A DNA stretch of 36,502 nucleotides, taken from positions 1 through 36,502 of IMG/VR virus record IMGVR_UViG_3300042400_001174, one strand, 5' to 3'. Source of the DNA: a virus. Shown here one piece after another: positions 4,284-8,760 of this stretch (positions are counted from its first letter, which is position 1; the number at the start of each line of letters is the position of its first letter). Under the pieces are notes generated by a model. The model did not search any database and was not told the DNA's origin. It was given only the letters and a program-made list of their open reading frames with translations. Position numbers and translations under genes: made by a program.

Positions 4284-4867
4284 GTTCGGTTGCACCGTTC
4301 GGCGATGGTGTGGACCACGGCGAGAATGCCGTCGCTCACGTCGCAATCCCACGCCAGGGCGATCAGGTGGCCGAGGTGCCGGCCCTTGCATGCCCACGGG
4401 TGCCGGTCGCGCGTGGCCGAGACGTTTGCGGCGACCCAGGTGAAGGATGGCGCGTTGAGCCATACGGCGCCGTCCGGGTGGGCATGGAAGCCTGTGGCCT
4501 GGTATCGGCCGGGCGCGATGGGCCGGATGCTGGCCGCGATCATGCGCAGCACGTGGCCGGCGTTGGCGCGCAGGAAGTCGGCATAGCCCATGTGGTCGAA
4601 CCGGCGGGGTCCGCGCACACGCTCGAGGTAGCGGTGGGCGGCATCCGGCGCGGCGGCGACGCGGCGCTCGAGGTCAAGGCGCTCCTCGCGGGCCAGGTGC
4701 AGGTCCATGGCGGCCACCTCGCGGTGTGCGAGGGCCACGGCCGCGCGCTCGTCATCGTCGCACGCTTCGGGCCAGCGCGGGCCGCCGCCCCAGGCCGCCG
4801 CCAGCGCGTGCTGAAAGGCCCATTCCGGGGCGTCGGCGGTGATGGTGCGTGTGGCGCTGCGGGTCAT
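4280..4867 (-). CDS. Hypothetical protein, 195 aa
   Basis: Not recognised. The protein begins MTRSATRTITADAPEWAFQH; residues about 40-80 form a charged helix rich in Asp, Glu and Arg, and the C-terminal half has scattered Trp and His residues (HPDGAVWLNAPSFTWVAANV, then DRHPWACKGRHLGHLIALAW). It is coupled by ATGA overlaps to the methyltransferase upstream and the helicase downstream, so a replication or DNA-modification accessory role fits the context. No signal peptide, membrane segment or catalytic motif is evident. Confidence 0.6.
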   Translation of the reverse strand: MTRSATRTITADAPEWAFQHALAAAWGGGPRWPEACDDDERAAVALAHREVAAMDLHLAREERLDLERRVAAAPDAAHRYLERVRGPRRFDHMGYADFLRANAGHVLRMIAASIRPIAPGRYQATGFHAHPDGAVWLNAPSFTWVAANVSATRDRHPWACKGRHLGHLIALAWDCDVSDGILAVVHTIAERCNRT

Positions 4868-5823
4868 GCGGCCTGCTCCTGCTGCATGATCCATGCGCCG
4901 ATCATCGTGACGACTTGCGGGACGACCGCGTTGCCGAGGCACTTAAGGCGGTCCACTCGGCGGGGAACCCCATGAGCCACTCGACCCACTCCGGGTTCAG
5001 CTGCCCACCAATCTGCTCGCACAGCTGCGGCGTGTGGCCATTCTCCTGCCGGCCCTTGCCGCTGCGCCAGTCGCGCGCCGCCGGGCTCGCAAACATCACC
5101 GCCAGCGCCATGGACGTGCCGCCCTGCGCATAGGGCTTCGTGCGCTCGGTCGCGCTGTCCTGCGTCGGCGTGGGCCACAGCTTCAGCGCGTTCAGTATCT
5201 CGGTGCGGTTCGCCCCGCTGCTGCGCAGCCCGCTGCATGGCCTGGGCGTCGGCATGGGCGGCCACGTCCTCTGCGCCACCAGCAGGCTCTTGCTTGCATC
5301 CTTGCCCATGGCGTCGTGCCCCGCAGCGCGGGGCGTGGGCAACAATCCAGACCCGCTGGCGTCGGTGGGGCGCGCCGGCATGGAGAGCACCCACCACGAC
5401 CGGCCAAGCGGTGTAGCCGCTTCCTTCCAAGTCAGAGAGCACCCGGTCGCTGCCTCGGCTGCGGAGAGCAGGAACATTCTCAGCGATGACCCAAGCGGGT
5501 CGGGTTTCCTCGATGATGCGGTGCATCTCGACCCAGAGGCCTGACCGCTCGCCCTCGATGCCCGCGCCTTTGCCGGCGAGGCTGATGTCCTGGCAGGGGA
5601 AACCGCCGCAGACGAGGTCGATGGGGCCGATGCCATCCCGGCGAAGAGCGGCAGCGTCCATCTGTCGCACGTCTGGATATATCGGCGTATCCGGCCAATG
5701 CTTGCGAAGCACGGCGGCGGCGTAGGCGTCCTGTTCGCAGAAGGCGACGGTGGACATTCCGACTGCTTCAAGCCCAAGGCTGAACCCCCCAATTCCTGAG
5801 AAAAGATCGAGCACGCGGGTCAT
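4864..5823 (-). CDS. DNA cytosine-C5 methyltransferase, with its target-recognition region conserved in another frame
   Basis: The 319-residue frame carries C5-methyltransferase motifs: I DLFSGIGGFS (6-15), IV GGFPCQDIS (73-81, nucleophile C77), VI ENVPAL (115-120), VIII HRRQRVWIV (153-161) and X LGNAVVPQ (296-303). It starts at ATG 5823 (ATGA overlap with the RuvC-like stop) and ends in an ATGA overlap. Between motifs VIII and X (about 5345-4905), however, the neighbouring minus-strand frame, shifted +1, encodes LLPTPRAAG, LWPTPTQDSA and GGQLNPEWVEWLMGFPAEW, typical of phage C5-methyltransferase target-recognition ends. That frame has strongly G/C third positions there, while the 319-residue frame does not. 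Joined at W159, frame two would give a product of about 306 residues stopping at 4902. Either a real or programmed frameshift, a sequence error, or dual coding is involved. Confidence 0.8.
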   Translation of the reverse strand: MTRVLDLFSGIGGFSLGLEAVGMSTVAFCEQDAYAAAVLRKHWPDTPIYPDVRQMDAAALRRDGIGPIDLVCGGFPCQDISLAGKGAGIEGERSGLWVEMHRIIEETRPAWVIAENVPALRSRGSDRVLSDLEGSGYTAWPVVVGALHAGAPHRRQRVWIVAHAPRCGARRHGQGCKQEPAGGAEDVAAHADAQAMQRAAQQRGEPHRDTERAEAVAHADAGQRDRAHEALCAGRHVHGAGGDVCEPGGARLAQRQGPAGEWPHAAAVRADWWAAEPGVGRVAHGVPRRVDRLKCLGNAVVPQVVTMIGAWIMQQEQAA

Positions 5824-7186: not shown

Positions 7187-7368
7187 GCGCGCGGGGCCAA
7201 ATGCTGCGCCGCCCTCTGGGCCGCGCAGATCACGGCGTGCACGCGGTCGGTGATGGCGCCCCTGCACCACCACACGGAGACGATGCCCAGGCGAAGCTCC
7301 GGGATGAGCGCGGCGCGCGTGAAGCCGAAGCCGCGCCAGCCCAGCGTGATGCCCAAGGACGCGCTCAT
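7183..7368 (-). CDS. Small hypothetical protein, 61 aa
   Basis: Read from ATG 7368 (ATGA with the PAPS-reductase-like stop) to an ATGA overlap with the next gene, giving MSASLGITLGWRGFGFTRAA and 41 further residues. It is strand-rich with several Trp, a possible small beta structure, and ends in a basic helix. It is accepted mainly because both junctions use the genome's standard overlap. Function unknown. Confidence 0.55.
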   Translation of the reverse strand: MSASLGITLGWRGFGFTRAALIPELRLGIVSVWWCRGAITDRVHAVICAAQRAAQHLAPRA

Positions 7369-8222
7369 GCGCCGCACATCACGCCGCAGCTTTCCACGGC
7401 GGCCAGCGTGTGATCGTCGCGGGCGCGGCGGGTGTCATCGAACAGGCGCGGCGACGCGGCCACGTTGGCGGCCAGCACGGCGTAGCGTTCGCGGTCGTTG
7501 CGGAAGGTGCGGCCGGCGCCAGCCGCTTTGCCGCGCTGGATCGCTTCCTGTTCTGCCCACCAGCGCATGCGCTCGGGATAGTCGGCCGTCATGCGTTCGA
7601 TGGCCGCGCGGCTTTTGAGGTAGCAGCCGTCACAGTTTCCCTCCCATGGGCCGCGCAAGGCTAGGTCGAAGGGTTGCCGCGCCCAAAACGCCAGAACATC
7701 GGCCTTGGTAACGCCGGCATCGTGCAGCGGGTGCGCCATCGTCCAGCGCTCGCGTGTGGGCTTGGTGGGCACGCGGTGCGCCTCATCCGCGCGGATGCCC
7801 ACCACGTTGACCCAGCGCGACCAGCCCAGCTTGCCGACCGCCCAGCGCTTGATGGTGCGGATTTTCAATTCCGTGGTGCAGCTACGCGCCACCGGATTGG
7901 GCAGGCTAGACTGATCGCTCAGCAAGGCGGCGAAGGGTTCGCCGTCCCGCGCTGCGCTGTTGTGCGAGACGACCTGATAGCCGTCCTTGCGACGCCCGGT
8001 GAACTCCAACCACGTCACCGGCACAGCCCATTCGGCGCTGCAACGTTGCACGAAATCCAGCGTGGCCGGCATCTCGCGCCCGGTGTTGGCGAACACCGCA
8101 TGCACGTCGGGCGGCAGCGTGCCGTCGTGCGCATCGAGAATGCGCCGCAGCATGTAGGCGCTGGTGCGCCCGCCGGAGAACGAAACGATGGCCGGGCCGC
8201 AAATGGCGAAAGGGTTGCTCAC
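7365..8222 (-). CDS. Phosphoadenosine-phosphosulfate reductase-family protein
   Basis: A 285-residue PP-loop ATP-pyrophosphatase-superfamily protein. The nucleotide loop is IVSFSGGRTSAYML (12-25), then VFANTGRE (43-50), CTTELKIRTIKRW (115-127), GIRADEAHR (142-150) and a paired-cysteine GNCDGCYLKS (195-204) that may bind a metal or Fe-S cluster. Phage members of this family are common and rarely proven to reduce sulfate; relatives act in sulfur transfer and DNA modification. The start is GTG 8222, because GTGA overlaps the preceding TGA exactly; upstream residues are Arg/Ala-rich shadow. Its location near a DNA methyltransferase and nuclease favours a DNA- or defence-related role, which is inference. 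Confidence 0.8.
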   Translation of the reverse strand: MSNPFAICGPAIVSFSGGRTSAYMLRRILDAHDGTLPPDVHAVFANTGREMPATLDFVQRCSAEWAVPVTWLEFTGRRKDGYQVVSHNSAARDGEPFAALLSDQSSLPNPVARSCTTELKIRTIKRWAVGKLGWSRWVNVVGIRADEAHRVPTKPTRERWTMAHPLHDAGVTKADVLAFWARQPFDLALRGPWEGNCDGCYLKSRAAIERMTADYPERMRWWAEQEAIQRGKAAGAGRTFRNDRERYAVLAANVAASPRLFDDTRRARDDHTLAAVESCGVMCGA

Positions 8223-8491
8223 TTCCCCTCCAGCACGGCAAGCGCCTGGCGCAGCGCATCGGCGGCGAGCGCGCGCTGCCCCGCGTCGGCGCGGCCGGCA
8301 AGGCGCGCGATCCCGGCGAAGATCGCGGCATCGGCGGCCATCAGCGCGACCATCTGCGAAGCGCGCGGCTCGGTTTCGCCGCGCTGCCAGCTTTCGCAGG
8401 TGCGCGGACTGGCACCGGTCATGCGGGCCAGCACCTTCGCCGGCCTCAACCGCAGCGTGTGCGAAAAGTGCGTATTTGGATAGCAGGTCAT
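8219..8491 (-). CDS. Small HTH regulator, 90 aa
   Basis: A 90-residue protein with a Cro-like HTH: LRPAKVLARMTGASPRTCES (residues 14-33) followed by WQRGETEPRASQMVALM, then a helical tail. ATG 8491 has a GGGGG stretch six to seven bases upstream; ATG 8506 (five residues longer) overlaps the stop of the questionable upstream frame and is also possible. Its TGA overlaps the GTG of the PAPS-reductase-like gene. It is the third HTH protein of the leftward array and may fine-tune early-left transcription, or mimic a host regulator. Only the HTH is seen; the target is unknown. Confidence 0.65.
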   Translation of the reverse strand: MTCYPNTHFSHTLRLRPAKVLARMTGASPRTCESWQRGETEPRASQMVALMAADAAIFAGIARLAGRADAGQRALAADALRQALAVLEGK

Positions 8492-8502
8492 TGCAGCCCC
8501 CA

Positions 8503-8760
8503 TCATGGTTTGATCCCGTTGTGGCGACGGGTGGGGGCAACAGCAGGGAGGGAGGGAAAGAGCGCCGCCGGGCCGAATTCGTTCGACGGCCCGGCGGCCA
8601 GTTTCAGGGGGAACACGCCCAGGCATGCGCGGTAGCCGCCGCGCGCGGATGCCGCAGACCGGGAGGCTGCGGGATGGGGGTGGCGGGCCGCGCCGTGGTT
8701 GCCGCCGGCAGCAGCCCGCCTGCGCGCGGTGGGGGCCTCGGGGGAGAGGACCGCGCGCAT
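8503..8760 (-). CDS. Doubtful 85-aa frame over a structured spacer
   Basis: An open frame starts three bases after the upstream stop and ends in an ATGATG overlap, which favours a gene. Against it, the product is low-complexity (Ala, Arg, Pro, His) with no domain, and a perfect 12-bp hairpin sits inside it. The DNA could instead be a leader or partial terminator ahead of the HTH gene. I cannot decide from sequence alone; third positions are fairly GC-rich, which is mild support for coding. Confidence 0.3.
   Translation of the reverse strand: MRAVLSPEAPTARRRAAAGGNHGAARHPHPAASRSAASARGGYRACLGVFPLKLAAGPSNEFGPAALFPSLPAVAPTRRHNGIKP
8564..8598. terminator. Strong 12-bp GC hairpin, possible leftward terminator or attenuator
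   Basis: GCCGCCGGGCCG (8564-8575) pairs perfectly with CGGCCCGGCGGC (8587-8598) around an 11-base loop that contains an EcoRI-like GAATTC edge. On the minus strand it is followed by CTCTTTCCC rather than a clean T-run, so termination would be partial or factor-assisted. Confidence 0.4.

Follow-up and report, generated by a model that had tools for sequence, protein, structure and literature searches.

Two overlapping reading frames in a phage genome appear to encode one two-subunit C5-cytosine DNA methyltransferase

In the monomeric C5 methyltransferases M.HhaI and M.HaeIII, all motifs lie in one chain. M.EcoHK31I, to which M.EaeI is related, is built differently, and its beta gene is reportedly nested in its alpha gene in another reading frame. 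In the passages of the published work available here, M.EcoHK31I is described as an enzyme of two polypeptides, both of which are required, with motifs I to VIII, motif X and the predicted target-recognition region (TRD) in the larger chain and motif IX in the smaller (PMC3404938). Its specificity is YGGCCR. M.AquI (CYCGRG), as far as the excerpts describe it, is a C5 methyltransferase whose two polypeptides divide after motif VIII, the smaller one carrying motifs IX and X. Among the plasmid and E. coli sequences searched we found related genes and identified no record of M.EcoHK31I itself, and the literature searched yielded no survey devoted to nested C5 methyltransferases.

Here we describe a minus-strand locus in a 36.5 kb virus record (IMG/VR IMGVR_UViG_3300042400_001174, whose 36,502 nucleotides are referred to as the window) in which two overlapping frames, by ORF and motif reading, carry complementary C5-methyltransferase motifs (Table 1). 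Judged by layout as the available passages describe it, the locus shares the arrangement of M.EcoHK31I, with motifs I to VIII and X in one frame (frame 0) and motif IX in a separate ORF, whereas the monomeric M.HhaI and M.HaeIII have all motifs in one chain. The smaller gene (4902-5636) is nested in the larger (4864-5823) in the +1 frame, as is said of M.EcoHK31I. Unlike M.EcoHK31I, the locus is phage-borne, and no restriction gene was recognised among the neighbours searched. It differs from M.AquI, as described in the excerpts, in that motif X is in the frame of the larger gene. Altogether, our results support a reading, to which we assign a probability of about 0.9, whereby the locus consists of two genes that overlap and together encode a single C5-cytosine DNA methyltransferase, an alpha and beta heterodimer of the M.EcoHK31I kind. 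The data show directly that both frames are open and conserved, that selection acts frame by frame and that the motifs are divided between the frames; translation of beta from a start of its own, assembly, the DNA target and a protective role are inferred.

Table 1 Features of the methyltransferase locus, in window positions
Feature	Positions	Strand	Remarks
Alpha gene, C5-cytosine methyltransferase large subunit	4864..5823	-	319 aa; motifs I-VIII and X; frame 0
Beta gene, nested in alpha, +1 frame	4902..5636	-	244 aa from best candidate ATG; TRD and motif IX
Frame-0 catalytic core, motifs I to VIII	5349..5814	-	Selection mainly on frame 0; pLDDT >85 for nearly all
Beta residues 68-86 (SLTWKEAATPLGRSWWVLS), predicted hairpin, +1 frame under alpha motifs VI-VIII	5379..5435	-	Both frames constrained
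Target-recognition region	5001..5345	-	+1 frame conserved, with PTPT..D repeats; frame 0 an unconserved linker, predicted disordered
Motif IX (LNPEWVEWLMGFP), +1 frame only	4962..5000	-	Most residues invariant or nearly so in 52 beta sequences
Motif X (LGNAVVP), frame 0 only	4918..4938	-	Selection back on frame 0

The alpha gene is a single open frame, read from an ATG at 5823 to a stop at 4864, and contains motifs I (VLDLFSGIGG), IV (GGFPCQ), VI (ENV), VIII (HRRQRVW) and X (LGNAVVPQV); at the position of motif IX it reads EPGVGRVAHGVPRRVD, unlike motif IX. The +1 frame, open as far as its stop at 4902, holds LLPTP (5345-5331), LWPTPTQDSA and LNPEWVEWLMGFPAEW (5000 to about 4953). Between 4941 and 5348, GC by codon position is 0.90/0.61/0.59 in frame 0 and 0.61/0.60/0.90 in the +1 frame, and at motifs IV-VIII and motif X the GC-rich third position belongs to frame 0. 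The frame-0 protein matches the Pfam DNA_methylase family (PF00145) over residues 3-164 only (E 9.9e-44) and phrog_363 over its full length (E 3.5e-78), while the +1 frame matches phrog_1008 at 4905-5609 (E 1.6e-17), so that the two readings fall into two separate PHROG families, both called DNA methyltransferase. These observations bear out an earlier sequence-only reading of the same DNA, which had noted motifs I to VIII and X in one frame that reads through, methyltransferase endings and the higher third-position GC in the +1 frame, and the methyltransferase character of both tails; it had proposed as explanations programmed frameshifting that switches the target, a frameshift mutation or long-term dual coding. 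When the frame-0 gene was reshuffled synonymously 5000 times, motif IX of the +1 frame did not reappear once. Taken alone, an open +1 frame is unremarkable in the GC-rich window (P = 0.08), and the strong statistics come from relatives.

Searches of viral contigs recovered 12 loci with the frame-0 protein, a query that carries no bias toward the +1 motif, and 80 loci with the +1 tail. In all 77 viral loci with both motifs recognisable, the offset of motif IX (PxWVEWLMG[FWY]P) from motif IV is exactly +1, and in nearly all viral loci both frames are open through the region, genomes of 44% GC included (the GC of the viral homologues ranges from 0.44 to 0.70). Among the loci from the frame-0 search, 8 of the 12 match motif IX strictly, and one (L016) has a shortened version. 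Inspection also covered L009 and L014, which differ from the motif at one or two residues, but not L015, whose match statistics are identical. A scan for VEWLMG[FYW]P in one genome per species, which is unbiased as to frame, gave the +1 relation in 73 of the 74 scorable bacterial or MAG loci, which by record title come from Pseudomonadota, Bacillota, Actinomycetota, Bacteroidota, Acidobacteriota, Chloroflexota, Verrucomicrobiota and others. The sole exception (L156) is an indel-damaged MAG contig in which both frames jump together and the +1 relation still holds beyond the jump. The pattern missed motif IV at six loci, and the two that were inspected (L142 and L104) also show the +1 relation. 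At 134 of the 150 loci scored, motif X returns to frame 0 within the alpha ORF. Comparison of both frames with homologues, as the sequence-only reading had proposed, revealed a shared arrangement and not the use of one frame only. Because the homologues, from independent assemblies, share the identical frame relation, and because the exceptional contig behaves as a real indel would, with both frames jumping at one point, we regard it as excluded that a mutation or an error of sequencing shifted the frame in this genome; nothing spoke for it beyond the out-of-frame motifs themselves.

Several relatives vary the arrangement. At seven loci (L043, L092, L146, L153, L155, L160 and L166), alpha contains stops between motifs VIII and IX although motif X is still in its frame, and about 620 bases separate the end of alpha from motif IX at three of these (L146, L155 and L160); these three and a few others are possibly three-piece enzymes, damaged copies or assembly errors. 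In Mycobacterium phage Seabastian (gp75/gp76; L004, 750-1509), alpha itself is split into two overlapping ORFs in different frames, and the beta-like frame (NPVWIEWLMGFPPNWTD) is still +1 to the second alpha piece. Salmonella phage SEN5 (L098, 1008-1997) has a nested +1 frame ending LNPELALWLMGLPDEW, and one gene only is annotated there. DNA similar to the SEN5 methyltransferase occurs in 69 E. coli genomes, the likeness being at the DNA level, and SEN5 and the similar E. coli genes form a divergent methyltransferase group.

Selection was followed frame by frame, in part by counting stops in 55 nonredundant homologues against synonymous reshuffles that keep the other frame's protein. With the frame-0 protein kept, observed and expected +1 stops are 98/80 in motifs I-III, 3/158 in IV-VIII, 0/82 in the TRD, 2/25 at motif IX and 91/58 around motif X; the third frame has no comparable stop depletion (283/275 in IV-VIII, 294/388 in the TRD and 108/71 at IX). 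With the +1 protein kept, observed and expected frame-0 stops are 0/147 in IV-VIII, 0/204 in the TRD and 0/31 at IX. This pattern of depletion delimits a sharp-edged protected +1 interval, with its upstream limit between motifs III and IV and its downstream limit at motif X. Substitutions between related homologue pairs, compared by codon position and frame, concentrate at frame-0 third positions in motifs I-VIII and X and at frame-0 first positions, which are +1 third positions, in the TRD and motif IX. Within the TRD, changes silent only in the +1 frame number 119 against 47 expected, and changes silent only in frame 0 number 23 against 39 expected. Selection passes from frame 0 to the +1 frame at the end of motif VIII and returns to frame 0 at motif X, where the third-position share of substitutions goes from 0.31 to 0.89; under motifs VI-VIII there is a mixed zone, in the columns of beta residues 68-86, where the share of frame-0 codon position 1 reaches 0.34-0.41. 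Constraint measured in each frame across relatives, a check that the sequence-only reading had suggested, thus lies on frame 0 in motifs I-VIII and X and on the +1 frame from the TRD to motif IX, and together with the conserved frame relation this both-frame selection supports long-term dual coding. It also places the TRD in beta, whereas the available passages on M.EcoHK31I put the predicted TRD in alpha.

These data bear on the possibility that the frame-0 protein alone is real and that the +1 reading is a by-product of DNA conservation, sometimes picked up by gene callers. The catalytic motifs do all lie in one open frame, as that explanation would have it, but the excess of changes silent only in the +1 frame shows that TRD-IX substitutions obey +1 codon structure, the failure of synonymous reshuffles to recreate motif IX argues against chance, and the TRD segment of alpha decays in relatives in which motif X sits in the beta frame; we consider this explanation very improbable.

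Those relatives (L045, L133 and L177) have motif X in the same frame as motif IX, so that beta ends with motif X, and several stops in alpha right after motif VIII. They amount to a natural experiment that matches the two-gene prediction: the TRD reading of alpha decays once motif X has moved to beta because that reading only tethers motif X. Their layout is that of M.AquI, which the window locus does not have, and they appear to show how the nested EcoHK31I layout can evolve into that of AquI. They also bear on why the overlap persists, namely that alpha must read through to motif X.

The +1 frame is stop-free for about 100 codons upstream of the selection switch, from a conserved internal start zone. 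At the onset of +1 openness (alignment columns 60-95), a Shine-Dalgarno match of at least five bases precedes +1 ATGs in 13 of 39 loci, and the same criterion gives 0 of 14 for other-frame ATGs in these columns and 1 of 50 for +1 ATGs downstream at columns 131-190. Examples are L022, L036, L041 and L045, where AAGGAG lies seven bases before the ATG. The counterpart in the window would be the ATG at 5636, a position taken from the homologues, and no clear Shine-Dalgarno sequence precedes this candidate in the window itself. We also considered a beta start at the ATG made by the ENV codons of motif VI (AATG) and rejected it, the Asn codons being 34 AAT and 42 AAC with no AAT excess; from the sequence pattern, the beta start would lie further upstream, between motifs III and IV.

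The internal start zone and the stop counts together weigh against programmed ribosomal frameshifting, in which ribosomes would enter the +1 frame past motif VIII and return to frame 0 ahead of motif X to make one full chain, or would produce two C-termini with different targets. Its attraction is that the most strongly selected pieces (frame 0 for I-VIII, +1 for TRD-IX and frame 0 for X), when joined, give a canonical methyltransferase. However, one chain needs two shifts, and neither frame would need openness outside its own functional stretch, so that frameshifting leaves unexplained the +1 openness under motifs IV-VIII (3 stops against 158 expected), the frame-0 openness under TRD-IX (0 stops against 204 expected in the TRD) and the enrichment of Shine-Dalgarno sequences and ATGs at the upstream edge of +1 openness. 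We therefore strongly disfavour frameshifting and hold it to be very unlikely. The idea that alternative C-termini switch the target is likewise unsupported: the products of the two frames look complementary and not alternative, because the TRD and motif IX are conserved in the +1 frame alone while frame 0 supplies motif X.

The AlphaFold2 model of alpha is confident at about residues 1-165 and 300-319 and poor in most of the stretch between, with pLDDT <50 over most of 168-261 and 93-94 from about residue 300, and the poorly modelled stretch coincides with that in which selection acts on the +1 frame. In a Foldseek search the best matches of the alpha model were M.HhaI structures (E 7e-16), with M.HaeIII close behind, and these monomeric enzymes share their fold with the large domain of alpha. 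Beta alone gave a model of insufficient quality for searching by fold (pLDDT 58), in which the hairpin blocks at residues 68-86 reach pLDDT 93 and 81; it had no Pfam match, and a PDB profile search gave nothing meaningful. The small-domain role of beta is therefore assigned from motif IX and position. A poor model might be expected of a lone subunit that needs its partner, yet it weakens the case. Solely as a search query, we joined alpha I-VIII, beta TRD-IX and alpha X into a chimera, which scored 154.2 bits against PF00145, compared with 150.5 for alpha, with two matched stretches instead of one, and 127.9 against TIGR00675, compared with 123; the gain is small and in the expected direction.

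In our model, the outer gene in frame 0 would yield alpha, comprising the SAM-binding catalytic large domain (motifs I-VIII), a disordered linker and motif X, which would pack back onto the large domain and complete the fold; alpha would thus hold SAM and the catalytic cysteine of the PCQ motif, and its reading of the TRD would be a mere tether to motif X. The inner gene in the +1 frame, with its putative internal start between motifs III and IV, would yield beta, the small domain with the target-recognition region and motif IX. A single message would serve for both, with beta translated from a start of its own, and the two chains would assemble into an active heterodimer as in M.EcoHK31I. Around the methyltransferase lie genes of phage replication and structure (AAA ATPase, RuvC-like resolvase, head, tail and connector genes), and the neighbouring genes searched included no recognised restriction enzyme; for these reasons the phage enzyme is probably an orphan methyltransferase that guards the genome from host restriction. 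We note that the window also carries, on the minus strand at 7365-8540, an auxiliary gene resembling phosphoadenosine phosphosulfate reductase (phrog_424).

In Paenibacillus phage Leyra (L097), both nested genes are annotated (LEYRA_61 and LEYRA_62, at 951-1988 and 1135-1839, offset +1), each as DNA-cytosine methyltransferase and apparently without comment on the nesting. An analysis of Paenibacillus larvae phage genomes lists methyltransferases, and the passages found do not mention nesting (PMC6070908). The orphan methyltransferase BA_3814 of the Bacillus anthracis prophage LambdaBa01 has been predicted to be EaeI/EagI-like (PMC4722110), and a nested beta gene may hide there too.

With M.EcoHK31I, an enzyme of this kind has been described before. 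What seems new here is how widely the arrangement occurs, together with the quantitative argument for dual coding and the evidence for a TRD in beta. For the class as a whole, we lean towards the view that the TRD lies in the nested beta and not in alpha; the pair would then rank among the most widespread and oldest overlapping genes of phages and bacteria, and its evolution towards the AquI-type split could be mapped. In many records of phages and prophages, probably, one gene only is annotated or the inner gene is called a separate methyltransferase, and recognising one enzyme corrects both annotation and methylome prediction. Finally, the locus is an unusually clean, long-lived same-strand overlap, in which selection changes frame and returns at domain boundaries.
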